A program made the position numbers and the translations under genes. Positions 1-30,351 of a stretch of 35,414 nt of DNA are shown in pieces. The notes beneath the pieces were generated by a model, which worked only from the letters and a program-made list of their open reading frames with translations, was not told where the DNA came from and ran no database searches. This DNA comes from Acidithiobacillus sp. (GTDB lineage: Bacteria; Pseudomonadota; Gammaproteobacteria; Acidithiobacillales; Acidithiobacillaceae), in contig NZ_JAGDWX010000015.1 of assembly GCF_023256195.1 (NCBI RefSeq), forward strand, positions 1-35,414, written 5' to 3'. The stretch's first letter is position 1, and the number at the start of each line of letters is the position of its first letter.

Positions 1-63
1 CTCAGCCAAGCGGATCGCCAAGCCTTTGCTAATGCGCTAGATCGGTTGCTGGCGCGTGGGTGA
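1..63 (+). CDS. C-terminal end of an unidentified protein (partial)
   Basis: Frame 1 is open from the first base to a TGA at 61-63 and encodes 20 residues rich in Leu, Ala, Arg and Asp (LSQADRQAFANALDRLLARG). The pattern suits a C-terminal amphipathic helix, as found in MarR-type regulators among others, but 20 residues cannot identify a family. The gene would run towards the pel operon end and converge with the epimerase gene. Most of it lies outside the window. The alternative is a chance open frame. Confidence 0.4.
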   Translation, partial: LSQADRQAFANALDRLLARG

Positions 64-111
64 TGTGGCTTACTTAGCGCACTGTGAGGTGTTTCGGGTG
101 GGAACAGTGGG

Positions 112-129
112 CGCTTTGCAGCAAAAGCG
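112..129. terminator. Weak hairpin between converging genes
   Basis: CGCTTT at 112-117 pairs with AAAGCG at 124-129 around a six-base loop. It lies in the 131-base gap between a plus-strand gene end at 63 and the minus-strand epimerase end at 195, where a terminator serving both directions would be expected. The stem is short and no long T-run follows on either strand, so this is only a candidate. Nothing else is visible in the gap. Confidence 0.25.
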
Positions 130-194
130 GCGGTTCGCACAGTGTTATATACCAAGCCAGATTTTTATGAGACCAGACAACGGAGGGAGCGCGC

Positions 195-1169
195 TCAGCT
201 AGGAAACGCGTGAAACGCGCTTGATGATATCGCTTCGTCAGGAAATCCATTCTCTTGCTTTACACTTCGCAAGCCGTCTTCAAGAGAGACGATTGGGTCG
301 ACAAGATTTTTTCTCATACGACTAATATCCGCCTGAGAGCGACGAATATCGCCATCCACACTCGGAACCCAATGAATCTCAGCAGGCCTGTCGTTCATGG
401 CAATGAGCGTCTCAGCCAAGTGTAGAATCGTGCAGGTCTGCCCACCAGCTACATTGACAACACCATCCACGGATTTGGTCAACGCAACCAAATTGGCTCT
501 CGCCACATCCGAGACGTGAATGAAGTCCCGTTCCTGCAAGCCATCCCCGCGTACAGTCAACGGCACCCCACGACGTAACTGGTCGATGAAACGGGAGATC
601 ACTCCACTGTAGGGGGAATTGGGATCTTGGCGTGGCCCATAAACATTGAAATAACGCAGACCGAGCTGCGAAAGCCCGTACATCCTGCCGTAGAGCTCGG
701 CGTAGAGCTCATTGCTGTATTTTTCTAAGCCGTAGGGGGAGATGGGACGAATGGGACCGTATTCGTGCAGGGGCAAAATCTCAGGATCCCCATAGACCGC
801 CGCCGACGAGGCATAGACCACCCGTGCACCCCGTTTGCGAGCCGCTTCCAGAACACGCACAAAGCCGACAATATTCTGTTCACAGGAGTAAACGGGATTC
901 TCGACGCTGCGTTGTACCGAGACTTGGGCAGCGAGGTGGAGGACCGCTCGCACATTGTCGAAAGCGGGCTCCAGCCGATTCGAATCCTCCACGCTTCCGG
1001 CGATAACCTCCAGACGAGGGGCACCATCGGGTAGGTTCTCTCGGCGTCCCGTCGAAAAATTATCCAGTACCCGTACTTGGTAACCCTCCTGCAGTAGCAA
1101 ATCGACGGTGTGGGACCCAATGAAGCCGGCTCCCCCGATCACCAGAATCACGCCCGCATCATTTTTCAT
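195..1169 (-). CDS. pelX: PelX-like NAD-dependent UDP-hexose/hexosamine 4-epimerase (SDR family)
   Basis: This extended short-chain dehydrogenase/epimerase has 324 residues from the ATG at 1169. The nucleotide-binding motif GGAGFIG lies at residues 12-18, and the catalytic set is visible as SSAAVYG near 121-127 and YGLEK with Tyr146 and Lys150. An ATG at 1175 is in frame, but AAGGA sits well placed before 1169, so I prefer the second start. The gene begins 8 bases after the pelG stop and is the last gene of the pel operon. Family knowledge: PelX is a UDP-GlcNAc C4-epimerase linked to many pel loci that provides UDP-GalNAc for Pel. The context makes that role likely here. Sequence alone cannot exclude UDP-glucose or UDP-glucuronate as substrate. 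Confidence 0.8.
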   Translation of the reverse strand: MKNDAGVILVIGGAGFIGSHTVDLLLQEGYQVRVLDNFSTGRRENLPDGAPRLEVIAGSVEDSNRLEPAFDNVRAVLHLAAQVSVQRSVENPVYSCEQNIVGFVRVLEAARKRGARVVYASSAAVYGDPEILPLHEYGPIRPISPYGLEKYSNELYAELYGRMYGLSQLGLRYFNVYGPRQDPNSPYSGVISRFIDQLRRGVPLTVRGDGLQERDFIHVSDVARANLVALTKSVDGVVNVAGGQTCTILHLAETLIAMNDRPAEIHWVPSVDGDIRRSQADISRMRKNLVDPIVSLEDGLRSVKQENGFPDEAISSSAFHAFPS

Positions 1170-1177
1170 ATCCATCC

Positions 1178-2548
1178 TTATCTCACTCGCACAAACGTCA
1201 GATAATCAATTCTTCTCAAATCCCGGGCCAATAGGTATAACCCAAGAACATCGGCCACAAAGAGTGCGCCAAGAAATCCCAGACCGTAAAAGAAGGGGCC
1301 AAGCAACAAGGTCACCCAAGTAAAGAAAAAATTTCCGAGCAAGAAAATCATGGCGAGCAGGACACTGCGGCCACGCAGATCCAGGTAGAAATACACATTC
1401 AACAAGCTCATCAGGAGCAACTGCAGACTTACGCCGATAACATCAAATTGGAAAATCCGCGCGTAACTTTCGGAGTACCCCAAGAGGGCAAGCAAAGGTT
1501 GGGTGAACGCAAAGGCCAGCAACACGGTGATCCCTTGAGTCTTGGCAATATCCCAAAGCCCAGCGCGGGTAGCGAGGATCATGCCCAGCTTGGCGCTGCG
1601 CAATTCTCCATAGGTTCCGCCCTCGACAATGGCGCGATTATAGGCGTCGTAGGCCTCGACGAAATCGGTTTCCAATCGGAACAAAAAGACCGCTAAACCA
1701 GGAACGATCAAGAGGTAGCTCAGGAATATGGGGACGTCGTAAATTGGGGAGGCGCGCAACGGCCCGATGACCGCCGCGCTGGTGCTGGGGTAAAACCAGA
1801 ACCAGAACTTGTCGACCCAGACTGCTAGATTGAAGGCCGCCCCCACCAGAGATAGCGACCAGAACAGACGATTAGCTTGGCGTTCTGGCCACTGTAGAAA
1901 GCCGGGGAATTGCCGCATGACCAGGATCCCGAGGCCGAGCAGCAGGACCAGTTGACCGATAGTGAAGGCTAAAAGGTAGCCATCTAATCCGTACTGTCGG
2001 CCCAAGGGCAGACCTAGACCGACCACCAGGGTATACGCCAACAAATACCCGATCACGAGCGCTTTGTAGTCTTTCAGGCTGGTTCCCATGATGGTCAGTA
2101 CCCATACCCCACAGAGTTCGACGAAGGCGACCCCCATGAGGATTTGGTAAAGAGTGGGCGTTCCGCCAAAGAAGAAAAATAATACGGCCGCTGCAAAAAG
2201 GGCACCGGGGAGAGTTGCCACTACCACCATAGTGAGCAGAATGGTCACCACGGAACGCTTTTGACGCGCGAACAACATATCGGCAATATAGCGGGTAAAT
2301 AATAGTTGTAAGGGACCGGTAAAAATCAAAGATACCGAAATTAGATAGGTGACCGACACCTGAAACTGGATGATCGGGCCGTGCGCGGGGGGAGCGCCAA
2401 CGGCAAGAAATCCCAGGAGGAGGATACCAAAGATAGAAAGCAACCAAGGCCCCGAAGAAACCAGGCCGGCATAGCCATAAGCCTCAGCCATGGCGAGGTA
2501 GCTCTTACGCTGCAGAATACGTCGCAACTCGAAACCGATGCCGGCCAT
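1178..2548 (-). CDS. pelG: PelG, inner-membrane flippase-like component of Pel synthesis
   Basis: This is a polytopic membrane protein of 456 residues with about 12 hydrophobic segments. It opens with the characteristic PelG start MAGIGFELRRIL. The frame is open further upstream to 2659, but that extension lies inside pelF and is arginine-rich and non-membranous, so the ATG at 2548, two bases past the pelF stop, is the credible start. PelG belongs to the MOP/PST exporter-like group and forms the inner-membrane Pel synthase/transport complex with PelD, PelE and the cytosolic glycosyltransferase PelF. It is expected to carry or support passage of the growing chain across the inner membrane. Length and gene order match the family. 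Confidence 0.93.
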   Translation of the reverse strand: MAGIGFELRRILQRKSYLAMAEAYGYAGLVSSGPWLLSIFGILLLGFLAVGAPPAHGPIIQFQVSVTYLISVSLIFTGPLQLLFTRYIADMLFARQKRSVVTILLTMVVVATLPGALFAAAVLFFFFGGTPTLYQILMGVAFVELCGVWVLTIMGTSLKDYKALVIGYLLAYTLVVGLGLPLGRQYGLDGYLLAFTIGQLVLLLGLGILVMRQFPGFLQWPERQANRLFWSLSLVGAAFNLAVWVDKFWFWFYPSTSAAVIGPLRASPIYDVPIFLSYLLIVPGLAVFLFRLETDFVEAYDAYNRAIVEGGTYGELRSAKLGMILATRAGLWDIAKTQGITVLLAFAFTQPLLALLGYSESYARIFQFDVIGVSLQLLLMSLLNVYFYLDLRGRSVLLAMIFLLGNFFFTWVTLLLGPFFYGLGFLGALFVADVLGLYLLARDLRRIDYLTFVRVR

Positions 2549-2550
2549 AT

Positions 2551-4047
2551 CTACTCCGTCAACGCCTGGGTGAAGAGTTGTCGATACTGGCCAAACATTT
2601 GCTCTTCCCGATACTGGCTTTCTACCCGGGCAATGGCGTTTTGACTGCAACGATCCCAACGCTCCTCGTCGTCGAGGAGCGCAATGATCGCACTGGCCAG
2701 GGCCTTGGGATCGGCAATGGGGACAATGATTCCGGCGGGTCGCTCTCCTTCCGCAGATGTATCCCCATAGAGCAGCTGCCGGCAGGAACCAACATCGGTG
2801 GACACGACGGGCACACCGGCGGCAAAACTCTCCAGCACCGAAAGGGGCAATCCCTCGCTAATGGAGCTGAGAATCGTGAGCCGTACCGCGGCCAACACCT
2901 CCACCACCGAGCGAAAACCGAGAAAACGCAAGCTCTCCTGCAGACCGAGATGCGCCGCCAAAACCTGACATTCGGCGAAGTACTCTTCGTCTTCCTCCGT
3001 TGGTCCCACAACCCAACACTGTGTTGCCCGTCCCTGTTGCCGTAGTAGCGCAGCAGCCCGAATGAAGGTCTTGATGTCTTTGATGGGTACCACGCGCCCA
3101 ATCAGCGCGATCACATCCTGTCTCTCAGAAAATGGCCGCCGTGCTGGCACCAAGGTCTCCACACCAATACCGTTAGGAATGGTGCGCAGTTTTTCTTGCG
3201 GCGCGCCACCTGCCAACTGCAAAGGAATCACTCCGGTGTATAAATTGACGATGTGCCGAGCCTGTTGATAAGCAAGTCTGCCGAGAAATTCAAAAAAATG
3301 GATCCAGAGTTGACGTAAGTAATGAATTTGTCCTGGTCGACGCAGAAATTCTTCATCCTCCTGGATCCAGCGAGCCATGAGAAGATCGATACGGCGCTCC
3401 TTGGTATAGATACCATGCTCAGAAATGATCAATGGCCGATTTTGGCGAGCCGCCAAGAGCGCTCCTAAATAGCCCGCATAGCCCGTTGATGGAGAAAGAA
3501 AGATTTTTGCCCGCGGCGCCGCCTGCAAAGCGGACTGCAAATACCACAAGGGCGTGTGCATACCGCGTATCGTCCAGAAATAATCGACAAAGGGAGGTTG
3601 ATCGGGAATTTCGGCATACCGCTGCAAAAAATAATCCCAGATAGCGGGTGAATGGAGAAATTCTGCGTGGCTGACGCCAAAATTCTCGGCCAGACCATAG
3701 TTCTCCAGCGGGCAGACTTCACCCTGCAAACAGGCTCGCATCTGTACGTGGGCGTGGTGCAGCTGTTCTACATCCAGCCTAAGTTTGCCTGGGCTAACCG
3801 CAGGTGGTTGATTGCCCTCGTCATACAGAAAATATTCGGCAAAATAATTGACATTCTCCGGTAGCGCATACGGCTGGCTGCGGCCGTAGTCGGTTTTTGC
3901 ACTACCAAGAAAAATAATGCCGAAAAGATATTCTGGGAAACCCTCTATGATGCGCTTGACCCAGGACGAAACGCCACCACGCACGTAGGGAAAGGTGCCC
4001 TCCAATAGCAGCAAGATATCCGTAGAGTTCGCCTCTTTGCGATCCAT
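2551..4047 (-). CDS. pelF: PelF, GT4-family glycosyltransferase (Pel polymerase)
   Basis: This 498-residue protein is a cytosolic GT-B glycosyltransferase. The N-terminus carries the PelF signature LLLEGTFPYVRGGVSSW, where the acceptor-side glycine-rich loop lies. The C-terminal donor domain contains RVVPIKD and then SEGLPLSVLESFAAG, the E-x7-E region typical of GT4 enzymes. PelF uses UDP-activated hexosamine to build the Pel chain on the inner face of the membrane, in complex with PelD, PelE and PelG. The ATG at 4047 overlaps the pelE stop by one base, so translation is probably coupled. Length is as usual for PelF and no key segment appears lost. Confidence 0.95.
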   Translation of the reverse strand: MDRKEANSTDILLLLEGTFPYVRGGVSSWVKRIIEGFPEYLFGIIFLGSAKTDYGRSQPYALPENVNYFAEYFLYDEGNQPPAVSPGKLRLDVEQLHHAHVQMRACLQGEVCPLENYGLAENFGVSHAEFLHSPAIWDYFLQRYAEIPDQPPFVDYFWTIRGMHTPLWYLQSALQAAPRAKIFLSPSTGYAGYLGALLAARQNRPLIISEHGIYTKERRIDLLMARWIQEDEEFLRRPGQIHYLRQLWIHFFEFLGRLAYQQARHIVNLYTGVIPLQLAGGAPQEKLRTIPNGIGVETLVPARRPFSERQDVIALIGRVVPIKDIKTFIRAAALLRQQGRATQCWVVGPTEEDEEYFAECQVLAAHLGLQESLRFLGFRSVVEVLAAVRLTILSSISEGLPLSVLESFAAGVPVVSTDVGSCRQLLYGDTSAEGERPAGIIVPIADPKALASAIIALLDDEERWDRCSQNAIARVESQYREEQMFGQYRQLFTQALTE

Positions 4048-4952
4048 CAGGAAACCTTCCCTTGCCAGAAGCGGTACGAAGACCCGTAGCGTGGGGAAAT
4101 CGAAAGTTCCGGATGGTGGCGATACACCTCTCGTACGGCACGCAAATCCCGACGCAGATAGTGTGCAGCAGCCTGATGGGGAGCGAGGATTGCCGTATCT
4201 ACTCCTTCCTGCTGGGCAGCGTCGAAATATCTGAGGGCCGCATCGGGCTGCCCGTCTTCCAAGGCTCGGAGACCCAAGAGTAAGGGCGGGGCTTCCAGTG
4301 CATTTTCCTTGTCTGCGGAACGATCCGCGGTGCTGACACCGTCAAGGCGGACCTTCGGCTCTGCCACTTCCTGTGATACGGAATGTTCGATATTCCAACG
4401 CAACCAAGCCAGATACTCCCGCAACCTTCGGGACAAGGGGCCCGTGGGCTGGGCGGCGATGCGTCGCTGCAGGTCGACGAGCATTTCGGTATCTTCCTGC
4501 TCGCGCTGGTCCAGAGCGGCGTAGGCCAGAAGGCGAACCTCTTCGGCCTCATCGCGCAGGGCGCTGCGCAGCAGGCGCAGTTGCTTCGCAAAACGAGAAC
4601 TCATGACCTGCGACAGAGCCTCTACCCGTTGCTGGGTATCTCGCGCTCCTTGCAAGCGAGCGGTAATGGCACCGGGAGCGACTGGCGATGGTCGCAAACG
4701 AAAATCCCTAGCCGGGGGCGGTAAGAGAATGGGTTCCACCTCGGCTTCGTGGATTCGCTGCGCCACGGAGCGCAAAGCAAAGGCATAGACCAGGGTCAAG
4801 ACCGCACCGATGAAGGGCAGTGCCAAACACAGCAGGGCAAAGAGGAGTGCGGCCAGACGCCGGCCCTTGCGGTCGACGACGGGCACCAGGTAGCTAGCCA
4901 GGAGAATCGCCAGCACCGAGATCAGTAGATCGCTCAGAAGCCAGCGCATCAT
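4047..4952 (-). CDS. pelE: PelE, membrane protein with TPR-type C-terminal domain
   Basis: From the ATG at 4952 this is a 301-residue protein with two hydrophobic segments at about residues 5-22 and 32-55. A long helical, soluble region follows, whose last third has the repeat pattern of TPRs (ALEDGQPDAALRYFDAAQ and neighbours). That is the PelE layout: two membrane helices and a cytoplasmic TPR domain that helps hold PelF, PelD and PelG together. The frame is open to 5057, but the extra N-terminus lies inside pelD and is Cys/Arg-rich. GGAG lies eight bases before 4952. A second ATG at 4949 directly follows. The start overlaps the pelD stop. Confidence 0.88.
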   Translation of the reverse strand: MMRWLLSDLLISVLAILLASYLVPVVDRKGRRLAALLFALLCLALPFIGAVLTLVYAFALRSVAQRIHEAEVEPILLPPPARDFRLRPSPVAPGAITARLQGARDTQQRVEALSQVMSSRFAKQLRLLRSALRDEAEEVRLLAYAALDQREQEDTEMLVDLQRRIAAQPTGPLSRRLREYLAWLRWNIEHSVSQEVAEPKVRLDGVSTADRSADKENALEAPPLLLGLRALEDGQPDAALRYFDAAQQEGVDTAILAPHQAAAHYLRRDLRAVREVYRHHPELSISPRYGSSYRFWQGKVS

Positions 4953-6232
4953 GGACACCACTCCAACCAGCGTGCGAGCTGTTCTGCAGCAGGTCGAGCA
5001 TCGACCGGAACAAAGTCGGCGCGCAAAAAGGCGGTTTCCCAAAGGTTCGCACAGCATTTCAGCAGTTCTGCCTCCACCCTTGCTCGTTGCCCTTCGGCGG
5101 CGCTGGTGCCGGCAAAGGGCAGCAAGAATAGAACCAAGAGATGCCCTTCACCCTCATGGACCCAGAAGATATCCAGGCCGCGGCGCAGATTCTGAATGCG
5201 GCGAACGATCTCCTGGGCCTCTCGACCGGCGCGAAACAGATAACGCTGACAAGTGCCGACCTCCGGCACGATCGCCGCGAGGCTGCGTAATTGCAAAAAA
5301 TCTGCAGCAAAATCGACCGGGCAATCCGGCCAACGGGACAAGATCTCCTCGGCACCTCGGCGCGCATCCCGATAGTTGCACAGATATTGAAAGAAGACCT
5401 CGATGATCTTCATGCTTTCGAAGGTGATAGCAAAAAAGCTCATGTCTTCGATGCAGAGCAGATCGCGGTCCTGTCCCTGCCCGCCGTGGATATGCACACT
5501 CAAGTAATGGTGAATGCGCTCCAGTTCCAGCTCTGCCAGTTGCTGACTACGCCCTTCGGCCAGGGCGGCGCGGGCTACCGGATCGGCGCCATCCCATTCC
5601 ACTACAGGTCCCAGGGCGGCCAGTCGGCGCGGCCGAAACTCCCCTGCCTCCCAACGGTACCAAGAGGCCACCTGTACGCCGGCCAACTGATTGAGAAAGT
5701 AAAGAATCTTTTCAAGCACCGGCGCGTCGAAGCCGCCTGGTCGCTGACGCAGATCGTCGCGCAATTCCTGCAAGGCACTCCGCACGGAAACGGGCTGATA
5801 TAGTAAGCTTTGTTCCAGACGATCCAGAGAGGTACGGGTTACGTAGAGATCATCGGCCAGCTGACGCAGGCGGGTAGCGGTGATTTCCTCCTGCAAGGCG
5901 CGCCCGGCCTCACGCCGCGCCCAGTGGGAGGCGTACTCGGCGGCGATGAGGGTTACCAATAGGGTGCCGGCGGCATCGGGGAGCAAAATATCCCTCGGAT
6001 AGGGATGCCACAGGTTGGCTGCGGCAAGAGTCAAGGTAGCCAGGGCTCCCGGCAGGAATTCGTAGCGCAGGGCGATGAGCAAGGGCACGAGCAACAGCCA
6101 AGGAAAGGGTTGCTGCAGTAGCAACGGATCCTGCGGCACCAGAAAATGGGTGAGCAGCAGGGCCAATACTGGCAAGAGGATCGCCTCCAGCCAGCCTTCG
6201 CCACGCCGCGGGATCGCTGTCAGCACCCTCAT
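4949..6232 (-). CDS. pelD: PelD, c-di-GMP receptor of the Pel synthase
   Basis: This 427-residue protein begins at the ATG at 6232, just after the pelC stop. Four hydrophobic segments occupy about residues 15-100. A GAF-like region follows, and then a degenerate GGDEF domain lacking the active-site motif. RGLD at 351-354 fits the RxxD inhibitory site that binds c-di-GMP in PelD. Arg383 and Arg385 lie at nearly the distance of the third binding arginine known from Pseudomonas PelD (Arg367, Asp370, Arg402). PelD switches on polymer formation when c-di-GMP binds. The frame is open upstream to 6427, but that extension overlaps pelC and is not membrane-like. Binding-site assignment is from motif and spacing only. 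Confidence 0.93.
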   Translation of the reverse strand: MRVLTAIPRRGEGWLEAILLPVLALLLTHFLVPQDPLLLQQPFPWLLLVPLLIALRYEFLPGALATLTLAAANLWHPYPRDILLPDAAGTLLVTLIAAEYASHWARREAGRALQEEITATRLRQLADDLYVTRTSLDRLEQSLLYQPVSVRSALQELRDDLRQRPGGFDAPVLEKILYFLNQLAGVQVASWYRWEAGEFRPRRLAALGPVVEWDGADPVARAALAEGRSQQLAELELERIHHYLSVHIHGGQGQDRDLLCIEDMSFFAITFESMKIIEVFFQYLCNYRDARRGAEEILSRWPDCPVDFAADFLQLRSLAAIVPEVGTCQRYLFRAGREAQEIVRRIQNLRRGLDIFWVHEGEGHLLVLFLLPFAGTSAAEGQRARVEAELLKCCANLWETAFLRADFVPVDARPAAEQLARWLEWCP

Positions 6233-6234
6233 GC

Positions 6235-6771
6235 TCAGCGCGCCAGAGCCCGATCCAAGAGGCGCTGGATCAGGCGTTGGGCAATGCCGCCGGTACCGCC
6301 ACGCCCGAGGCTGCCGCCGTGGGCACTGCCAACACCGCTCCACACCACTCGATCGTTGGCCACATCTACCACCCACAGGGTCATGGCGACTTCGGGTTCG
6401 GCGTTGATACCGGCACGGTAGGTCCACTCATCCACACTTCCTGCCAGGGCGTAACGGGCGCCATTACTGCGCGCCGCCGCCAGAGCACTGGCGTACTCCT
6501 GCTTCCAGTTGCCACCGAGCAGATCCTGGGTGCGGGTATCGATCGGCAGCGTACCGACCACGCGTTGCCCATCACTTTGCAGAATTCCGGCGGCCAAGGC
6601 GGCGGCGCGGGCATTGGCCATGGGTGTTTCGGTGTTGTTGGCAAAAGGTAGCACAGCCCACGCCACATCCCGCACCTTGGGCAAGGGTTTCGCCGTGCGC
6701 AGGTCCATACCGGCACAGCCCGAAAGCAGCACCAAAAATCCTACCGAAACCAGCAGCGATCGCCATCTCAT
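6235..6771 (-). CDS. pelC: PelC, outer-membrane lipoprotein of the Pel export machinery
   Basis: This is a 178-residue lipoprotein. The N-terminus is a short basic stretch, a hydrophobic core and the lipobox LLSGC, giving a lipidated Cys near residue 19. The mature part has the mixed alpha/beta look of PelC, with segments like WAVLPFANNTETPMANARAAALAAGIL. Family knowledge: PelC forms a dodecameric ring on the periplasmic face of the outer membrane around the PelB barrel. A GTG at 6777 is in frame, but GAGGGAG lies eight bases before the ATG at 6771, so I chose the latter. The gap to the preceding pelB barrel gene is 18 bases, the widest break inside the operon. Confidence 0.9.
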   Translation of the reverse strand: MRWRSLLVSVGFLVLLSGCAGMDLRTAKPLPKVRDVAWAVLPFANNTETPMANARAAALAAGILQSDGQRVVGTLPIDTRTQDLLGGNWKQEYASALAAARSNGARYALAGSVDEWTYRAGINAEPEVAMTLWVVDVANDRVVWSGVGSAHGGSLGRGGTGGIAQRLIQRLLDRALAR

Positions 6772-6789
6772 CGTCACGACTCCCTCTGT

Positions 6790-8304
6790 TCAAAAATAAA
6801 AGCGGTATCCCATCTTGAAAATCTGTTGATTGATGGCCAGACCATTGCCCCCCTGCCCCTGGGAAAAGCCAATGCGCAAACGATCGGGCCCAAAAACCGG
6901 TGTACTGACCCCCGTATCGAGCTGGTACTGAATACCGTAGCGGGTATTGTCGTAGACACTTACTGCTAGGTACGGTGTCCAATTGCTGTCGATGGCGCGC
7001 TCCCACTGCCCCCACTGCAGCCTCACACCAACATCGCCATAACTCCCGGGCAGTACGGAGTCGATGTTGCGCGCGCTTGGCGCGAGGGTTTGTGCGACGA
7101 CACCTTCGATCTGGCTGTTGCGATGTAGATCGTGATAGTCGACGAAGGGTCCCAGCTGCAGCTCCCATGGGCCCAGGCCATGACGCCATGACAACGACGC
7201 CTCGCCAAAAAGATCGGAGCCCAGATCGACCCCGTCTTGGCCTTGGTATTGCCGCCAGCCAGCGCCAACTCCCGCCATCCACGAACCCAGCTGCTGCGTC
7301 AATTGCCATTCGATGCGGTTGGACATGCCCGCCACAGCCAGGGCTGGACTTTGCAGGCTGCGATCGTGGTAGGCCAAAGTGCCGGTAAGGCTCCGCGTTG
7401 CCGACCATTGCCAGCGGCCCTGGAGGTTCAGGGTCAGGTTATTACGCACTCCTTGGTAACTGCCGATGAGCCCTTGGATGTCCCAGTCGGGATGCTGCCA
7501 GTACAGACCAATCGCCTGACGCTGACTCCAGCCCGGCACAGATAATAACTGTGCCGAACTCGACGCCGACTGGCGCAAGGCGTCGGCATCAAGCTGTATC
7601 CCCCAAGCATTACCGAGGGCGAGGCGACCGCGTAGGTGCGGACCAATCTGGCTCAGGCCATTGAAACTCTGCCAAGAGCCCGAGAGGTCCGCATAGCTTG
7701 CACTTTTGCGCACGGCCTGCAGATATTCCCGCCGCAGACGCCAATCGTAAGGATTTATCTCCATCGCCGCCAAGGCGTCCTTGCGCCCCTGGGCGTATTG
7801 TCCCAGATCCATTTGCGCCTGCAGACGATCGCGTACCGGTAGGCGCTCCGGATGTTGCAGCAACTTCGCCATTTCTTGCCCATCGTGACGGTGCAGGGCC
7901 AGGCTCAGCTTTGCCCAATCGGGTGTGGGTTGCGGATTGTTCTGGATGAGGACTTGTGCCAGTCCCCAGTAGCCCTGGGCCAAGGCCCAGGAGATGGCGG
8001 GCAAATAGTCGCCACGTTTTGCCTCCGCAAAGAGCACACGACGAGTAGCATCACCAAGACTGGGCGAAGACGATAGGCTATCGGCCAAAGTACGTAGTGG
8101 ATCGTTGGCAAAGGGCGATACCGCCGAAGGCGTCGGCACGTCCGCCGCCCTTTCGATGGCGGTCGAGGAAATCGGGGCATCCGCCGAGACCGGGCCGACT
8201 GGCGTCGGATCGGTGGTCGATTCCGCGGCCAATACGCCGGGGGCGTAGCACAGCACGCCCAATCCAGAAACCAGAAAAAAACCATAATACTCGCGCCGGC
8301 TCAT
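6790..8304 (-). CDS. PelB segment 3: exported protein with C-terminal outer-membrane beta-barrel
   Basis: This 504-residue protein has its own signal peptide (hydrophobic core at about 8-25, cleavage near VLA-AES) and a Pro/Ser/Thr-rich linker. A helical stretch to about residue 210 has TPR-like repeats (ALHRHDGQEMAKLL, LGQYAQGRKDALAAMEINPY). The remaining 290 residues consist of alternating polar/aromatic strands. It ends in YRFYF, the aromatic C-terminal signature of outer-membrane barrels. This corresponds to the last TPRs and barrel of the usual single PelB. The start codon overlaps the previous gene's stop as ATGA, indicating coupled translation. Its separate signal peptide argues that the split is functional, not a sequencing error. 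Confidence 0.82.
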   Translation of the reverse strand: MSRREYYGFFLVSGLGVLCYAPGVLAAESTTDPTPVGPVSADAPISSTAIERAADVPTPSAVSPFANDPLRTLADSLSSSPSLGDATRRVLFAEAKRGDYLPAISWALAQGYWGLAQVLIQNNPQPTPDWAKLSLALHRHDGQEMAKLLQHPERLPVRDRLQAQMDLGQYAQGRKDALAAMEINPYDWRLRREYLQAVRKSASYADLSGSWQSFNGLSQIGPHLRGRLALGNAWGIQLDADALRQSASSSAQLLSVPGWSQRQAIGLYWQHPDWDIQGLIGSYQGVRNNLTLNLQGRWQWSATRSLTGTLAYHDRSLQSPALAVAGMSNRIEWQLTQQLGSWMAGVGAGWRQYQGQDGVDLGSDLFGEASLSWRHGLGPWELQLGPFVDYHDLHRNSQIEGVVAQTLAPSARNIDSVLPGSYGDVGVRLQWGQWERAIDSNWTPYLAVSVYDNTRYGIQYQLDTGVSTPVFGPDRLRIGFSQGQGGNGLAINQQIFKMGYRFYF

Positions 8305-9944
8305 GGCTGCGCTCTCGACTGCCTGCGCTCCAGCTCCTCATAACTCCGCCAGGCAGCCACGCGACGCTGCGACCAAGCCAAGCCTGGGCTACCGCTTTCT
8401 GCCCAGAGACCCGCCTGCTGCAGGAGTGCCTGCGGCGTGTCGTTCTGCGCCGTGCTTTTGCTCCCATACACGTAGAGTGCTGCACGATACTGCCCAATGC
8501 GCTCCAACACACTGGCGACAGCGTCCCGCAGCCCCGGTGCCGGGTGTAAGGTATCGCCCACCAAAAGAGCGCGTAAGGCTGCAATGCGATCATGGTCGAT
8601 GAGCATCCATAGCAGATTGCTCTGCGCTATTTCGTCTTCGGGGTTGAGGCGCAAGACCTCGGCGTAAGCGCGACCGGCACGATCGTAATCCCCCTGGGAG
8701 CTTGCCCATTGCCCCACGGCCATCCAGTACGCGGGATAGTTGCGGATACCATCGGGGTCTTTGGGTGGGATCTCTTGCAGCAGGGTGCCGAGTTTATGCC
8801 ACTCCTGTGCGACGCCGGCGTAGTAGACGGCCTCAAAGTAGAAAAGCGGTAGGTGGTAGCGATGCCAGCCTTGCTCCGCGACATGCATGGCCGCCCGGGC
8901 GTTTTCCTTCCCGCTCAGCAGGACCAAGCGTTGCAGATCGTACTGGCTGGCAGCTCCGAGTAAATACAAGGTTTTCTCTGCCGCAAAGGCGGCTCGGTCG
9001 TTGTGTATTTCCCAGGCGAGCAAGGCATAGAGCTGCCAGAAGGGGACATCGTCAAGATTTGCCGAGGCGCGCGCCTGCTCAAGGGCCTGAAAGGCAAGAC
9101 GATAGTTACCCTGCATCGACAACAGTCGCGCCTCTTCCACCGCAAGGTGCGGAGTCGATCCGTAGAGTTGCACGCTGCGCTGCAGAGCCGCCAGGCTCTG
9201 GTGCACCTGTCCCAGTTGGTAGCTGAGGTATGCTTTTTGTTCGAGAAGATAGCGACGCGGGCCGCCGCGCCGTAGGGCAGCATCGATATCGGCCAAGGCT
9301 TTATCGGGCTCTCCCAACTCGCCGTAGGCAAAAATCAGCGCCTTCCAATCGGTGTCACCGAGGGTACCGGCGCGAGCAGCGGGGCTGAGAAGCTGGACCA
9401 CCAGATCCGGGCGCGACAAGCCCACCGCGAGGGTAACGGCCTGGCGGGTGGCCGCTGCGTCCCCATGTTGGGCGAGCCAAGTCCATTGGGTCAAGGCCTG
9501 ATCCCGCTGTCCCAGCCACAAAGAGACCTGGATCAGTCGCTGGCGCCATCGGCGATCCTCTGGACGTTGCAGAACCGCTGTATACGCTAAGCGATAGGCC
9601 TCCTGCAAGCGATGGGTCTCTAAAAAGGCGCGGTAAGCCAGATCATAAAGCTGGGCGGAGTACGCACTGGGGAAGGGTTGCACCGCAATGGGCGGCTTGT
9701 ACCAAGAAGGAGAAACGCCGCCCTGGTCCAGATATGCCATGCCCTTGCCCGTCTTCTGACTCTGCTGCAGATCCGCCGCAAAGGCATTGGCATCTTTTTT
9801 GTGCTTCAGGTAGTTGGCTCGCCACTGGGCGTCCTCGGCGGCGAGGCTTCCAGGTGCCTTCCACCAATCTTGTGGAACGCTGGGACTGGCGTGCGCCAGT
9901 ACCGGTAAACAGAGCCAGCAGAGTATAGTGGTCGCTCGCTTCAT
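8301..9944 (-). CDS. PelB segment 2: exported periplasmic TPR protein
   Basis: This 547-residue protein has a clear cleavable signal peptide (MKRATTILCWLCLPVLAHA, cut after AHA). It is otherwise almost all helical, with many TPR-like units such as LGEPDKALADIDAALRRGG, LGQVHQSLAALQRSVQLYG and QGDYDRAGRAYAEVLRLNPEDE. No barrel strands or membrane helices are visible. By position and content it equals the middle TPR solenoid of PelB, which in Pseudomonas binds PelA and guides the cationic polymer. The ATG overlaps the stop of segment 1 as ATGA and is preceded by AGGGA at a good distance. It is therefore read as a separate, newly initiated chain. Confidence 0.82.
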   Translation of the reverse strand: MKRATTILCWLCLPVLAHASPSVPQDWWKAPGSLAAEDAQWRANYLKHKKDANAFAADLQQSQKTGKGMAYLDQGGVSPSWYKPPIAVQPFPSAYSAQLYDLAYRAFLETHRLQEAYRLAYTAVLQRPEDRRWRQRLIQVSLWLGQRDQALTQWTWLAQHGDAAATRQAVTLAVGLSRPDLVVQLLSPAARAGTLGDTDWKALIFAYGELGEPDKALADIDAALRRGGPRRYLLEQKAYLSYQLGQVHQSLAALQRSVQLYGSTPHLAVEEARLLSMQGNYRLAFQALEQARASANLDDVPFWQLYALLAWEIHNDRAAFAAEKTLYLLGAASQYDLQRLVLLSGKENARAAMHVAEQGWHRYHLPLFYFEAVYYAGVAQEWHKLGTLLQEIPPKDPDGIRNYPAYWMAVGQWASSQGDYDRAGRAYAEVLRLNPEDEIAQSNLLWMLIDHDRIAALRALLVGDTLHPAPGLRDAVASVLERIGQYRAALYVYGSKSTAQNDTPQALLQQAGLWAESGSPGLAWSQRRVAAWRSYEELERRQSRAQP

Positions 9945-10801
9945 GAGGATTTCCCTGCCTGTTCTGGTCGCAGGAGCTCGCTATGCAGCCATTGTGCCGC
10001 CAAAGCCGGCTGCCCCGCTGCCATGGCGAGTCGGGACATGAAGAGGACCACTTGGCGATCCTGCCAAAGCTCCGGCCTGCGGGCGAGCAGTACCTGGCAA
10101 CGAGTCAGGGCAACGGCGGCACCTGCTCCACCCTGCAGCCACTGCCCGCCCTGAAAAAGGAGGGCTTTCTGCCGCGCCGGATCGGGGGTTTTCGCCGCCA
10201 GATCGAGCAAGATCTGTCCCGCTGCAGCGGCATCTCCGCCAGCCGCCAAAGCCTTGGCCGCCTGCCACTGGCCCTGCATGGAAAAGCTTGGATCGGCTTT
10301 GGCGGCTGCAATCCAAAACTTGGCGCTCAGTCGGTACGCGCCGACGGCAAAGGCATCTTTGGCCAATGAGCGCAGTTCTGGGGGCGTCCAGCCCCCAAGC
10401 TGCAGCAGGCCATCCAGCAAGGGAAGCAGTCCGGCCTCCGCTCGCTGACGTGCTGGCGACTGGGGAGGGATGGCGAGGGCCTGGGTGCGGGCAATCCGCC
10501 ACTGGAGCAGCTTCGCCTGACGATAGAGGGGATTTTTCGGATTCTTCAGAATGGGAGCGAGCTGCTCTTCGGCCGCGCGGTACTGCCCACTCTGCAGCAT
10601 CAAGGCCGCACTCTGGATTTGCGCGCGGGCATCACCGGCGGACTCGCTGAAGGCCAGGCGCCCATGCCAGCCATACTGCCAAGCTACCGCGAAAATTACG
10701 GCAACGACCAGCACGCCGAACAAAAGAAGGCTTGCCGGTCGAAAGAGGCGCATACGCACCTCGACATCGGGCTCAGGGGCAATGGACATCAATGCGAGCA
10801 T
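9941..10801 (-). CDS. PelB segment 1: membrane-anchored TPR protein
   Basis: Up to 286 residues. One strong hydrophobic helix (LLLFGVLVVAVIFAVAW, about residues 26-42) follows basic residues and has no cleavage site, so it looks like an inner-membrane anchor with a periplasmic C-terminus. The rest is Ala/Leu/Gln-rich helix with TPR spacing (LQSGQYRAAEEQLAPIL, LAMAAGQPALAAQWL). It corresponds to the N-terminal part of PelB. The first ATG (10801) overlaps the pelA end by 29 bases. ATGs at 10789 and 10753 are alternatives, the last lying outside pelA, and no Shine-Dalgarno sequence decides. No catalytic motif is present, as expected for a scaffold. Confidence 0.75.
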   Translation of the reverse strand: MLALMSIAPEPDVEVRMRLFRPASLLLFGVLVVAVIFAVAWQYGWHGRLAFSESAGDARAQIQSAALMLQSGQYRAAEEQLAPILKNPKNPLYRQAKLLQWRIARTQALAIPPQSPARQRAEAGLLPLLDGLLQLGGWTPPELRSLAKDAFAVGAYRLSAKFWIAAAKADPSFSMQGQWQAAKALAAGGDAAAAGQILLDLAAKTPDPARQKALLFQGGQWLQGGAGAAVALTRCQVLLARRPELWQDRQVVLFMSRLAMAAGQPALAAQWLHSELLRPEQAGKSS

Positions 10802-13589
10802 GGTGCGCAGGACTCTGCACTTGGCCGGAACCAGTCACGGTAGCGGCTTTGCCATTGACACGGACTTGGCAGGCCTGGACATTGGCGAGTTGTAGCTGCA
10901 ACGGCACGGTACCGAGCAACCGCGCAGAAAAGCCATGGTTATTCTGCTGGTAGTCGGCAATGGCCGCATTGGCGCTTACGATAAATGGTTCTTTTGGCGG
11001 CGTGGACTGCAGGGCAAGATATACGGAATCCTGGCCGTCCATGTGTACATACCAGCGACCGTTGGGTGTGGCATCATAGCCGGCTATTCCCTGGCTCTTG
11101 TGCAGGTCGGGATAACCCAGCTCTTTGGGCATCCGCAATTCTTGCAGGGCCTGGGCGCCACCAATCCAAAAACCATCTCCCTGACGAGCTATGCGTATGG
11201 TAAAGAAGTTGTTGGCGATCTTCGCGTAATCGGCGACGAAAACAGGGGTAATGGATTGCTTCAGCACCCAGTCGTAGACCTTTTCCAGCGCAGAGAGAGA
11301 CGCGAGCTTTGTCGCTGTATACCAGTGGGTATAGATATCGATGGGCTTCAACCGATGCGGCTTATTGGTCATCTCGAAGGTTTGAATGACATTGATGTAC
11401 CCCCAATAAGGGCCGTGCCACTGGTTGGTGAAGTAGTCTTCATTGGCATCGGGGGCAAAGACCTGCAACCATTTGCCGCGGAAAATGCCGATGGGCGGAA
11501 CAGCGGTAATGCTGGGGTCTTTCTTGCTGATGTAACTGGCACCGCCATTGATGTTTTCCAGCCCCGCTTGGTAGGCCAAGCCTACCACCTGGGCGTCGGG
11601 TTCGCAGTCACCCGACCATTGATCGATCACCACCTGCTTGCCCGGTGGCGCCAAATGCTTGTCGATCCATTTGGCCGCTCCCACCGCCTCCATATACGGG
11701 CTGAACTTGTACCCCGGTACTGGCAGATTGATACCCGGGAAATTCTTTCCCGCCTCGATAGCAGGCCAGTTGAAGGGGTGCGACCACATGTGCGAGCCAA
11801 TCTCGACATAGGGCAAACGGAAAATCTCACGAGCCACTTGGGTACCCAAGGGCGCAAGGGCGGGATAGAGCCCGCGATCTCCCGGCAAGAGGTCGCCAAC
11901 GATGATGGAACCGGTGAAAGGCAGCTGGTATTTTTTGAGAATCCGGTCCATGTAGACCTGACCGGCAATATGATAAGGGGGGAAGTCAGCGCGGCTCACA
12001 AAACCATCGCCATCGGTGTGGGCCATAAAGAGACGCCGACCACTCTCGGTGGTGGTATCCGGCACGGGCATCTCGGGCAGACGAAACGCTTTCCGATAGA
12101 GGGTGAAGGGGTCAATCAGCCAACGAGTATCTTTGTTGGGCAGGGTCGTGATGATATACGGACTGAGCGCGTAGCCGCCCCAAGGCGTAATGGCCGCGGC
12201 ATCTTCGCGGGCACCACTGCTATCTTGCAGTTGCAGCCACACCTGGCTCCCTGCCGGGGCTTTGGTAGCGAGAAAGTCTCGCGGGTTCGGGGTGATGGAC
12301 ATCTCGTAGTTCATTGGCGTCGCAGCGTGCAAGAGACGCACGGACGCCGTGTCAACGGAGCTGGGCGCGGCCATCCCCAACGCCTGAAATGCCTTGGCGT
12401 CGAGGTCGTTTTGGAAATCTCCCAGCAGCAGGATGGGAATTCCCTGCGCCTTGGCTGCAAGGATCCAGTTGGAAAGCGCGGCGACATCATCCACCGGGTC
12501 TCCGTCGCTCCAGAAGATAACCCCCGCATATTCCCCCGGAACTGGGGCGGGCGGCATACCTTGGGACAGACGCCGGAATTCCGGGATGTAGCCAAGATAT
12601 TCCAGAGGCATGACGCCGTTAGCGAAGGGGGTGCTGTACTGTTCTGGCTGGGTGCTGTTGTAGAGAATCAGCACCTTACGCGGCATGGGCTCGCGTAGCC
12701 CAGCGCCAACTGCCGTGAGTTCGGGATTGCTGACATAGGGAATGAAACCCGCTTGGCGGATCCGTTCTGCATCTTCCCACCAACCCTTCCGGTTCAGGGA
12801 CGTCGGCATATAATCGACGACGATCACTGGTAGCCCATAGCCCTGCGCTTTGTGTAGCTCCCGTACCAAGGCCGTGCGCTCCGCCTCCGGGACTTGAGTA
12901 TAACGGTGATCTGCCTGACTCCAACTCTGATACAAGGACTCCGCCAGCACTCCAACAAGATCCTGATGGATCTGCGGGAGCACCGCAAAGCCGCGATTGG
13001 CGATGAGCTTGGCATTGGGATGTGCGGCCTTGATGGCCTGAATCAGGTCCACCAGCCCCTGTTCTTGCGCGCCGCGCGCTGCACCCTGGGTAACGGACTC
13101 ATACGAATCCAGGGTATCGAGAAAAAATCCGCGGTAGCCCTGTGCCCAGATGGGGTCGACTACCTGCTGCAGCAAATACGTTCGGCAACTGGCCTTGGCC
13201 AAATCGATGATCTTACCGCCCCAATGGGGATTGCTACCCAAAACACAGTCGGTTGGCAACTGTGCATAGCGGGAGTCACCGGGGACCGTCTCACCGACAC
13301 TGACATAGGAAAAGACTTGCTGTCCGGGAAAATCGCTGGGCAGACGCTGCTCGCCCGGATTGACGATGAGCCAGTCGAAGTCGTGAAAGGCCACCGGAAC
13401 CGGCCCCGAACCATAGTAGAGGCCGACACTGGGCAGCGCATTCTGGGGTGCCGCCCAGAGCAAGGGCGTCCAAGAACAAAGCACCAAGATTGTCAAAAGA
13501 GAAAGCCAACGCCGTGTGATCAATGCCAACCCTCGTATATCTTCAAAAGGACATGCAGACCCTAAACGACGTTTTCTCATAAATCGCAC
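10773..13589 (-). CDS. pelA: PelA, periplasmic Pel deacetylase and glycoside hydrolase
   Basis: This 938-residue exported protein has two enzymatic parts. The N-terminal GH166 hydrolase carries FFLDTLDSY (Asp158) and VLAESLY (Glu217), matching the known Pseudomonas PelA catalytic region around Glu218. A linking domain follows (VLILYNSTQPE onwards). The C-terminal polysaccharide deacetylase has HTDGDGF (Asp526, Asp528) and EIGSHMWSHPF with His600 and His604, positions equal to the Pseudomonas metal ligands. PelA removes acetyl groups from Pel and can cut it. The start is uncertain: GTG at 13589 or ATG at 13580, neither with a good ribosome-binding site. The signal peptide's hydrophobic core starts only near residue 28 (cleavage near LWA-APQ), so the n-region is long. 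This is the first gene of the operon. Confidence 0.94.
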   Translation of the reverse strand: MRFMRKRRLGSACPFEDIRGLALITRRWLSLLTILVLCSWTPLLWAAPQNALPSVGLYYGSGPVPVAFHDFDWLIVNPGEQRLPSDFPGQQVFSYVSVGETVPGDSRYAQLPTDCVLGSNPHWGGKIIDLAKASCRTYLLQQVVDPIWAQGYRGFFLDTLDSYESVTQGAARGAQEQGLVDLIQAIKAAHPNAKLIANRGFAVLPQIHQDLVGVLAESLYQSWSQADHRYTQVPEAERTALVRELHKAQGYGLPVIVVDYMPTSLNRKGWWEDAERIRQAGFIPYVSNPELTAVGAGLREPMPRKVLILYNSTQPEQYSTPFANGVMPLEYLGYIPEFRRLSQGMPPAPVPGEYAGVIFWSDGDPVDDVAALSNWILAAKAQGIPILLLGDFQNDLDAKAFQALGMAAPSSVDTASVRLLHAATPMNYEMSITPNPRDFLATKAPAGSQVWLQLQDSSGAREDAAAITPWGGYALSPYIITTLPNKDTRWLIDPFTLYRKAFRLPEMPVPDTTTESGRRLFMAHTDGDGFVSRADFPPYHIAGQVYMDRILKKYQLPFTGSIIVGDLLPGDRGLYPALAPLGTQVAREIFRLPYVEIGSHMWSHPFNWPAIEAGKNFPGINLPVPGYKFSPYMEAVGAAKWIDKHLAPPGKQVVIDQWSGDCEPDAQVVGLAYQAGLENINGGASYISKKDPSITAVPPIGIFRGKWLQVFAPDANEDYFTNQWHGPYWGYINVIQTFEMTNKPHRLKPIDIYTHWYTATKLASLSALEKVYDWVLKQSITPVFVADYAKIANNFFTIRIARQGDGFWIGGAQALQELRMPKELGYPDLHKSQGIAGYDATPNGRWYVHMDGQDSVYLALQSTPPKEPFIVSANAAIADYQQNNHGFSARLLGTVPLQLQLANVQACQVRVNGKAATVTGSGQVQSPAHHARIDVHCP

Positions 13590-27404: not shown

Positions 27405-28352
27405 CTAGGGACGCCGCGGATCGTCATTGGCCAACAGTGCAGCGCCGCGCATGCCGGCAAGGTCATCGTTGTTGCCGCGCCTGACCTCGACGGAGCCGCG
27501 CAGGGCCGGGATCAGATCCTGGTCCAGACGCTGGAGAAAATCGTCCGCGAAACAGTCCCAGGCAGCGCTGAGCCCTCCACCTACCCGCAGCAGACCCACA
27601 TCGGCCACCTTGAGCACGTGGGCCAGCGCCTGCCCCAGACACTGTCCCGCCCGGGCAAAGGCGGCCCGCCCCTCAGCGTGCCCGTCGCGCGCCATCTGGG
27701 CAATGACGGCGGGCTCCGGCGCCGTACCCGTGGCTTCCACGTAGCTGGCCTGCACGCCGCGCGCCGAGGCGTACTGTTCGAGGCAGCCCTGATTGCCACA
27801 GCCGCAGCGCCTCCCCCCAGGGACCACGATCAGGTGACCGATTTCCATGGCGGCACCGTGGGCACCGCGCCAGGGCCGGCAGTGGTGTACCCAGCCGCCA
27901 CCCACGCCCGTACCCAGACCGACATAGAGGAGGTCCTGCAGCTCCGGGTGGGCCTGCCGCTCCTCCCAGAATTCGCCGTAGGCGGCGGCATTGGCGTCGT
28001 TTTCGGCAATGACCCGCAGGCCCAGGCGCTGCGCAAGCTCCGATTGCAGTGCAAAATTTTCCAGTTGTGGGATATTGGGAGACTTGAGCAGCACCCCGTC
28101 GTGATCAACGAAACCCGGGAAGGCGAGACCCACGCGCGCCACCTCGGGAAAGTCGGGCAGCAATTCGTGGATACCCTCGGCCAGGGCAGTGAGCACGATC
28201 TCGCGGGCGGCGGCGCTGTCGCTCGCTGCCTCACAGCGCTGCCGCAGATCCACCTCACGTCGCGTGCAGCGCAGGCACTCCGCGCCCTGGAACACACCGA
28301 AGCGCAGATTGGTGCCGCCGACATCGACGCCGATACAGAGTTTATCCGCCAT
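27405..28352 (-). CDS. ROK-family glucokinase-like sugar kinase
   Basis: This 315-residue protein has the ATP-binding DVGGTNLRFGV (9-19), catalytic Asp119 in ENDANAAAYGE, and the GLGTGVGGG phosphate loop. The ROK zinc site is His173 (EIGH) with CGCGNQGCLE (183-192). Family members phosphorylate glucose or related hexoses with ATP. As the last gene of glgC-GH57-GH57-ROK it most likely phosphorylates glucose released during alpha-glucan remodelling. Other hexoses or N-acetylhexosamines cannot be excluded. The ATG overlaps the end of the upstream GH57 gene by 11 bases, with AAAGG nine bases before it. Confidence 0.9.
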   Translation of the reverse strand: MADKLCIGVDVGGTNLRFGVFQGAECLRCTRREVDLRQRCEAASDSAAAREIVLTALAEGIHELLPDFPEVARVGLAFPGFVDHDGVLLKSPNIPQLENFALQSELAQRLGLRVIAENDANAAAYGEFWEERQAHPELQDLLYVGLGTGVGGGWVHHCRPWRGAHGAAMEIGHLIVVPGGRRCGCGNQGCLEQYASARGVQASYVEATGTAPEPAVIAQMARDGHAEGRAAFARAGQCLGQALAHVLKVADVGLLRVGGGLSAAWDCFADDFLQRLDQDLIPALRGSVEVRRGNNDDLAGMRGAALLANDDPRRP

Positions 28353-30351
28353 GGCCTTGCACCTTTCCCGTCAGCACACAGGTCCACTCCTGACCCAAGG
28401 CCACGGACCATTGTAGATCCAGTACCAGCGCCTGCATGATGCGCTCAAAACCGGCCTCGGACTGGGAGATACTCCAATGCGGGCGCACCTGCCAGGCGAC
28501 AGGCCGGTCCACCCGCAGTTCCAGACGCCCCTGCAGGACATCGTCCTCGATGGCGACAAGGCTCGCGGAGCTGCCTTGCGCCGGCGTGCCCAGACCGCCC
28601 TGGAGAATGTCGTCCACCAGCAGCCGACCGCCGGGACCGTCGCAACTGGGCATGGCGAGATAGAGCCGAGTGCGAAAGGGTATCTCTCCACTCCCCGCAT
28701 CCTGGGGCGTGAGACGATAATCCACCTGCAGGACACCGCGCCGCAGCTGATAAGCCTTGTGCACCAGGTGACTCGGTGCGGCGCTGGCGACGAAGCGCAG
28801 GCCCTTGTTCTCGCCCTCGATGCGATACTCGAGGCGGACATCGCCCAGACGATCGATGAAGCTCTGACAGGGAATATCGTCAAAAACCAGGTCCTCGACA
28901 CCGATCTGGGTCTTGAAACTCACCCGGTCGTGGGCCGAGACGATACCGCCGTGCTCCGGTGCCACGGTGCTCGCGCCCTGGCGAATCTTCTCGTAGTAGG
29001 CCTCATCCCGTCGTGCCAAGGTGTCGGCAAAGTTGTGACGGCGACCATAGTGGTCCCACTCGACAATGCTCGCGAAGGGCTCGGGAGCGACGATGATCTG
29101 GGCCTCTGCATCGTGGCAGAGCCACTCTTCGCGACCGTCCAGATCGATATCCAGGGCCGTAAGGGTCGGTCGTTTCTGCACTCCATCCAGCAGGGATTCC
29201 AGGGTGAGCAGAGCGTGATAGACGGCGCGACGCAGGTGCGGCAGGTAGATGCCACCAAAAAGCCCATGCCAGTAGGCGTCGTTGGCCTGCGCCGCGTGCA
29301 GGGCGGCGCGCATGGCCGGACTCTGCCGCCGCTTGGGCAGAGCGTGGAAGCGGGCCGACAGCTGCAGCATCCGCTTGTGCATCCAGTTGCCCTCGGGATA
29401 GCGGCTCAGGAAATTCTTCCAGATGCCACCGCGGATCAGGGCCTTGCGTTCCCCCAGACGGCCGGCATCGCGCTCCTGGTGGAGCAGGGCTTCGTACTGG
29501 TGCGCCGCCGCCGGCGGCAAGGTCCAGGCATTCATCTCCGAGTAGGAAACGGTGGGCAGGTAGACGATCCCGAGGGGTCGCTGCTGTGCCAGGAAGTCTC
29601 GATAGTGCGTGGGAACGATGCCTTCGTGGGCAAGTGCCCCCTGAATGAACTGCTCCAACCAGCCGCGGCCATAGACCCAGTCGTAGGTCTCCGGCCAGAG
29701 TCCGAACTTTTCGATGTCGTCGAAATAAATGGCCGCCTGTCCCGCACGGCCGCCGATCTCTGCGATGGCCTGGCCTGCCTCGGAAAAGGGCAGAAGGTAG
29801 CGCAGGCGCTCGGCAATGGGAAAAACATCGATGGCCTGGCCGTTTTCTTCCGTGCGGTAGAAGCCCCCCAGCGCCTCAGACGCCACCCCGGCGCAGAGGA
29901 AATGGTAGTCGTCTACCATCACGTAGCGGATACCGGCATCCACCAGGGCTGGCACCACACTGGGATCCCAGACCCGCTCCGTGAGCCAGGCGCCCTGTGG
30001 ACGCACGCCAAAGGCCTGCTCCAGACGTTCGCTCATGGCCTCCACCTGCTCTACCCGGTCCAGGTAGGGAATAGCCGCCAGCACGGGCTCGGTATCGCCG
30101 GCACCCACCAGCTCCGTCTGGCCCCGCGCGACCATGTCGATGAGCAGGGTCGTGGTGGCCGGGTGATGCTCCAGCATATATCCCAGCAGCCAGCCGCTGA
30201 TGTGGACGGCAAAGGGGAATTCGGGATAGCGCGACAGCACCTCGAAAAATGGGTGATAACAGCGCGCCACGGCGTCGTCGATGACCTCGGGGAAGTTGCC
30301 GATGGGTTGGTGGGCGTGGACTCCCAGGAGCAAGGGGGTGGCAGGGGGCAT
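28342..30351 (-). CDS. GH57 4-alpha-glucanotransferase-type enzyme
   Basis: This 669-residue protein starts with GVHAHQPIGNF (metal/substrate His), followed by AWLTERVWDP with the probable nucleophile Glu125 and YFDDIEKFG with Asp211/212 as acid/base. These match Glu123 and Asp214 of Thermococcus litoralis 4-alpha-glucanotransferase. The C-terminal half is beta-rich and fits the accessory domains (DUF1925/DUF1926 type) of that subfamily. It would move maltooligosaccharide units between alpha-glucans in the cytosol, since no signal peptide is present. AGGAG lies five bases before the ATG, which follows directly on the stop of the next GH57 gene. Alpha-amylase activity is possible instead. Confidence 0.9.
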   Translation of the reverse strand: MPPATPLLLGVHAHQPIGNFPEVIDDAVARCYHPFFEVLSRYPEFPFAVHISGWLLGYMLEHHPATTTLLIDMVARGQTELVGAGDTEPVLAAIPYLDRVEQVEAMSERLEQAFGVRPQGAWLTERVWDPSVVPALVDAGIRYVMVDDYHFLCAGVASEALGGFYRTEENGQAIDVFPIAERLRYLLPFSEAGQAIAEIGGRAGQAAIYFDDIEKFGLWPETYDWVYGRGWLEQFIQGALAHEGIVPTHYRDFLAQQRPLGIVYLPTVSYSEMNAWTLPPAAAHQYEALLHQERDAGRLGERKALIRGGIWKNFLSRYPEGNWMHKRMLQLSARFHALPKRRQSPAMRAALHAAQANDAYWHGLFGGIYLPHLRRAVYHALLTLESLLDGVQKRPTLTALDIDLDGREEWLCHDAEAQIIVAPEPFASIVEWDHYGRRHNFADTLARRDEAYYEKIRQGASTVAPEHGGIVSAHDRVSFKTQIGVEDLVFDDIPCQSFIDRLGDVRLEYRIEGENKGLRFVASAAPSHLVHKAYQLRRGVLQVDYRLTPQDAGSGEIPFRTRLYLAMPSCDGPGGRLLVDDILQGGLGTPAQGSSASLVAIEDDVLQGRLELRVDRPVAWQVRPHWSISQSEAGFERIMQALVLDLQWSVALGQEWTCVLTGKVQGHGG

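Follow-up and report, generated by a model that had tools for sequence, protein, structure and literature searches.

In the window, by which we mean the whole 35,414-nucleotide stretch of Acidithiobacillus DNA analysed here, the Pel exporter PelB is likely to be complete and functional as three proteins, B1, B2 and B3, that arose by stepwise fission at domain boundaries and would hand the polymer along a non-covalent relay. PelB has so far been drawn as one chain that bridges both membranes and serves as a rail for the polymer. PelB occurs in nature as one, two or three proteins, and this series, together with two re-fusions in the three-part clade, implies that the rail need not be covalent; and a single chain across both membranes is probably not needed for Pel export.

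Three pelB genes in the pel operon

The pel operon is a minus-strand run from 13589 to 195, in the order pelA, B1, B2, B3, pelC, pelD, an ORF at the pelE position, pelF, pelG and an epimerase gene. The first gene, pelA (10773..13589), encodes a periplasmic Pel deacetylase/hydrolase of 938 aa with a GH114 match; the protein is 82% identical to that of its nearest relative and has profile matches to PelA in all relatives. A sequence-only reading of this DNA had placed three ORFs of 286, 547 and 504 aa between pelA and pelC, and we find exactly these, all on the minus strand. The pelC-like lipoprotein gene that follows (6235..6777, minus strand, 180 aa) was recognised by its lipobox LLSGC, its position, a weak LpoB-like match and profile matches to the gene at the same position in relatives. 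Further down the same strand lie the gene for the c-di-GMP receptor PelD (4949..6427; PF16963 PelD_GGDEF, E 1.2e-28), a 336-aa ORF (4047..5057) that has no Pfam match and is assigned to pelE by position only, the glycosyltransferase gene pelF (2551..4047; DUF3492 and Glycos_transf_1), pelG (1178..2659; PF16933, E 1.8e-135) and a gene for a WcaG-like NAD-dependent sugar epimerase (195..1175; PF01370, E 1.6e-63). An epimerase gene downstream of pelG has been reported for A. caldus and A. thiooxidans (PMC4331095, PMC5852609). The three ORFs are thus accompanied by pelA, pelC, pelD, pelF and pelG, with pelE present by position. The genome, whose 37 contigs total 1.98 Mb at 99.99% completeness, holds one PelB-type barrel. 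Elsewhere in the window, at 28342-32058, two large minus-strand ORFs of 669 and 568 aa without an NCBIfam match stand beside glgC.

The domains of PelB are distributed over three ORFs, each with its own start and targeting signal, the signal peptides and the membrane helix being judged from hydrophobicity and AxA sites. pelB1 (9941..10801, minus strand) encodes a membrane helix and N-terminal TPRs. Its true start is most likely an ATG that lies 17 bases ahead of the pelA stop codon (MSIAPEPD..., 10789), which gives 282 aa and is preferred because a start near that place is conserved in relatives; on the same comparison the first ATG of the 286-aa ORF was judged less likely. Hydropathy marks a strong hydrophobic segment near the B1 N-terminus, SLLLFGVLVVAVIFAVAW (10679..10732, minus strand), which is predicted to be an uncleaved helix and probably anchors the protein in the inner membrane. 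pelB2 (8301..9944, minus strand, 547 aa) encodes a TPR solenoid, equivalent to PelB TPR ~7-19, behind a predicted signal peptide, MKRATTILCWLCLPVLAHAS, that has an AxA-type end, with no lipobox cysteine where cleavage would occur. pelB3 (6790..8304, minus strand, 504 aa) encodes a signal peptide, a linker, an alpha-rich portal and a 16-strand barrel. For this third protein the sequence-only reading had named a signal peptide and a barrel ending in YRFYF; the barrel is borne out by PF24604 (6796..7707, minus strand) and by the end ...MGYRFYF, but the description has to be widened to take in the portal at residues ~67-199.

Both junctions are 4-base ATGA overlaps on the minus strand, as had been read from the letters: the B1 stop overlaps the B2 start at 9941..9944, and the B2 stop overlaps the B3 start at 8301..8304. 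The ribosome-binding site claimed as good at the first junction does exist before B2 (gcagggaaatcctcATG), but its strength is only moderate; in the window sequence there is no obvious ribosome-binding site upstream of B3.

Correspondence to the single-chain PelB

We aligned profiles made from the window proteins and their relatives to the full PelB of PDB 9h80. A profile of B1 and intact N-termini matched PelB 71-278 (E 3.3e-16), the B2 profile matched 298-726 (E 1.5e-63) and the B3 profile matched 781-1187 (E 2.7e-33), so that between them the three proteins account for all ordered domains of the Pseudomonas chain. Single B3 and B1 sequences searched with phmmer against the PDB gave nothing useful, whereas the profiles did match. 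B2 has TPR family matches (TPR_15, E 7e-45) and also matches the 5WFT fragment of PelB. B3 carries Pfam PF24604, 'PelB, C-terminal beta barrel domain' (E 1.8e-52), and an origin of B3 in another barrel family is ruled out by this match and that to 9h80.

In P. aeruginosa PelB an inner-membrane helix occupies residues 1-36, TPR1-19 span 69-726, an alpha-rich region begins at 727 and the barrel spans 876-1193 (PMC12022489). Because the published TPR limit of 726 agrees with the matches of B2 and B3, the second cut falls at the boundary between the TPRs and the alpha-rich region; the first, judging from repeat length, appears to fall between repeats near TPR6/7. The parts of PelB that contact PelA, 332-436 and TPR9-15 (PMC12141448, PMC12022489), lie entirely within the B2 match, and docking of PelA by B2 is predicted from homology. 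PelC contacts the TPR/stalk of PelB from residue 803 on (PMC12141448, PMC12022489), and this docking region for the PelC ring lies within the B3 match, as does the equivalent of the conserved gating tyrosine Tyr1103, Y422 in B3. In the cryo-EM work, PelB 762-1193 placed behind a foreign signal peptide assembled correctly with PelC (PMC12141448); that construct is nearly a man-made B3.

The structure models, all of single chains, agree with this partition. The B2 model has a confident TPR solenoid from ~90 to 540, with pLDDT >90 over most of it and an uncertain N-terminal extension, and Foldseek returned generic TPR solenoids only. In the model of the fused protein of A. ferrianus, a member of the same clade in which B2 and B3 form one chain (see below), a solenoid runs to 521 and is followed by a low-confidence linker at 522-549, an alpha-rich region at 549-663 and 16 strands. 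This linker, predicted to be disordered, is the exact site of the former B2/B3 junction. The cut thus lies between domains, where the chain is flexible, and both folds can remain intact when the parts are separated. The portal and barrel of the A. ferrianus protein match PelB 9h80_M with Z 34.3 over 374 residues, against 24.6 for PgaA and 23.3 for BcsC.

P. aeruginosa PelB (PDB 9h80, 5WFT) therefore has the same ordered domains in the same order, with a matching portal and barrel fold, but as one chain of 1193 residues, whereas the window encodes three proteins with their own targeting signals and an extra N-terminal segment in B2. That segment was delimited by alignment at 9660..9875 on the minus strand (WWKAPGSL...YLDQGGVSPSWYKPP), corresponds to residues 24-95 of B2 and has low confidence in the models. 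Its ~70 residues (WWKAPGSL...YLDQGGVSPSWY) are conserved across the three-part clade and absent from two-part relatives in the alignment, and the segment could be a candidate docking element.

Among known exporters, BcsC (cellulose; PDB 6tzk, 9b8a) and PgaA (PNAG; PDB 4y25) also combine TPRs with a 16-strand barrel and are the next-best structural matches, but they are single chains that work without PelC on other polymers. In the alginate system AlgK, a TPR lipoprotein, and AlgE, a barrel, are separate proteins too and are thought to form a complex with a modifying enzyme (PMC9734138). AlgK, however, is attached to the outer membrane as a lipoprotein and shows no piece-by-piece homology, and AlgK/AlgE has no inner-membrane TPR piece (PMC9734138); B2, for its part, is not predicted to be a lipoprotein.

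Distribution and history of the split

The barrel is present in 19 of 29 genomes of the same family, and the family loci that lie on one contig are all three-part save one. We find the three-part arrangement in 19 non-redundant loci, isolates and complete chromosomes included. All 19 have a B1/B2 overlap of -4 (ATGA or GTGA) with a signal-peptide-like N-terminus. At the B2/B3 junction the overlap is -4 in 14 of the 19 and mostly -8 in the others, which are A. thiooxidans-type members (-8 or +7 in L060). Comparison of the window with its nearest relative shows purifying selection (dN/dS 0.06 for pelA, 0.16 for B1, 0.07 for B2 and 0.11 for B3), although dS is near saturation and the values are rough. 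B3 of the A. thiooxidans-type loci L060 and L063, with their -8 overlap, does not enter the dN/dS results. A chance arrangement is excluded, because homologues occur in independent assemblies and dN/dS is 0.06-0.16. The proposal that PelB is divided into three coupled, separately targeted proteins is thereby supported, the same split recurring in independent assemblies; we also checked whether the close relatives all have an intact single-gene PelB, and they share the split.

The pelB loci covered by name here are those of close relatives of the A. thiooxidans strain used in the pelD study, such as A. concretivorus and A. sulfurivorans. The A. thiooxidans work, with a pelD mutant and Pel-dependent biofilm (PMC5852609, PMC7825692), indicates that Pel is made in the genus Acidithiobacillus. 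One metagenomic locus (L024, genome G027, 1-4331) has B3 in two frames and pel genes 89-96% identical to those of the window; its genome is 69% complete and assigned to another genus of the family, which suggests recent transfer or a binning error.

Architectures were assigned as single, two-part or three-part by HMM mapping over family loci, class and phylum samples and 80 named loci, a sampling without Aquificota and other thermophiles. The 93 non-redundant loci with a usable PelA comprise 36 single, 38 two-part and 18 three-part loci and one of undetermined architecture; two of the 38 are re-fused members of the three-part clade. A PelA tree (midpoint root, quick search) groups the three-part operons and the two re-fused members in a single clade (SH-aLRT 100). 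This lies within a larger clade that also takes in two-part relatives (99), and single-chain PelB stands further out. The likely direction, on this tree, is from single to two to three parts. The two-part form, B1 followed by a B2-barrel protein, occurs in Rhodoferax, Curvibacter, Rhodanobacter, Geobacteraceae, an Acidiferrobacter MAG and others, and its distribution on the tree needs more than one change. It has the same first cut and mostly the same 4-base overlap (28 of 42 two-part loci), but keeps TPRs and barrel in one chain. This form, an inner-membrane TPR protein beside a secreted TPR-barrel (L046-L136), is common in Gammaproteobacteria (in the GTDB sense) and Geobacteraceae; the first cut is therefore older and wider than the three-part lineage.

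Four three-part loci, in MAGs, probably lie outside the order, judging from MiaB, which is 59% (L064-L066) and 57% (L074) identical to that of the window, compared with 70-71% within the order and 79-80% within the family. The operon has probably moved between lineages, unless these bins are mixed. At another locus (L137, genome G742) a 658-aa barrel frame stands beside a 338-aa PelA fragment, a degenerate or truncated pel locus.

In two members of the three-part clade B2 and B3 have been joined again. A. ferrianus MG (L073) lacks ~200 bases present in three close relatives; with this deletion B2 has lost its end and stop codon and B3 its start, its signal peptide and its linker, and a single open frame of 968 codons now runs on from where B2 begins. 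In the MAG TL1-5.bin26 (L057) the frame likewise runs through B2-B3, and the core of the signal peptide is gone. Because the signal is lost in each, both look like fusions rather than errors. Both retain the B2 extension. Covalent linkage of B2 and B3 is thus tolerated, which weakens the idea that separateness is required.

Fission of pelB is already in print: a figure legend of Bundalovic-Torma et al. 2020 (Fig. 5 iii) mentions 'pelB fission' in 'aquatic thermophilic species' (PMC7112194). In the portion of that paper available to us this is a single legend phrase that names neither Acidithiobacillus nor the number of pieces, the cut points or the targeting signals, and the three-part features described here are absent from that text; the review 'The Matrix Revisited' may also discuss split PelB.

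A proposed non-covalent relay and its alternatives

We propose that the N-terminal helix keeps B1 in the inner membrane, where the first TPRs of B1 would receive the polymer from PelDEFG. B2, exported as a soluble TPR solenoid, would present the PelA-docking surface at which deacetylation takes place. B3, in the outer membrane, would hold its alpha-rich portal within the PelC ring and release the deacetylated, cationic polymer through its barrel. The three would associate end to end without covalent bonds and be produced together by coupled translation. We infer their physical association, their use at 1:1:1 and the path of the polymer by homology to P. aeruginosa. The earlier suggestion, a channel of several proteins whose middle subunit is a soluble TPR protein, remains the best reading of the anatomy. 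The split also displays the limits of the modules for polymer uptake (B1), PelA-dependent deacetylation (B2) and PelC-ringed exit (B3). It supplies B1, B2 and B3 as modules that are already separate and can each be expressed alone for reconstitution, and it opens the membrane-bridging model to direct test.

An unlikely alternative is that the middle TPR protein is a free adaptor that serves, or shuttles among, several B1 and B3, with subunits exchanged and present in unequal numbers; the TPR protein and PelA would then form a free periplasmic module that docks to the inner- and outer-membrane pieces through the lineage-specific N-terminal extension, possibly tuned to an acid periplasm. B2 is indeed predicted to be soluble and separately secreted, and its extension, which could dock, is found only in the three-part clade. 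The 4-base overlaps, however, favour matched synthesis, and the two re-fusions fix B2 and B3 at 1:1 while keeping the extension.

B1 and B2 might instead have moved to another role, leaving B3 and PelC alone to export the polymer. Although the barrel and portal of P. aeruginosa form a stable complex with PelC on their own (PMC12141448), B1 and B2 keep their place in the gene order across the clade and always occur with pelA and the barrel, the PelA-docking segment is conserved in B2, and we consider this very unlikely.

It is more improbable still that a single PelB continues to be made from the three genes, by programmed frameshifting or by reinitiation-coupled readthrough at the ATGA overlaps. 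One shift per overlapping junction would suffice, and fused forms do exist in two relatives. Yet in almost every member the overlaps coincide exactly with signal-peptide-like starts, which would be pointless in a fused chain, and neither junction in the window shows an evident slippery heptamer. Moreover, the B2/B3 frame relation varies between clades: overlaps of -4 and -8 imply different frame relations, so no conserved frameshift could yield one chain.

Assembly error or a decaying pseudogene is scarcely credible: the contig belongs to a contig-level draft and the L024 MAG has B3 in two frames, but the same junctions recur in the 19 non-redundant loci, isolates and complete chromosomes among them, dN/dS is low and the rest of the pel operon is intact.
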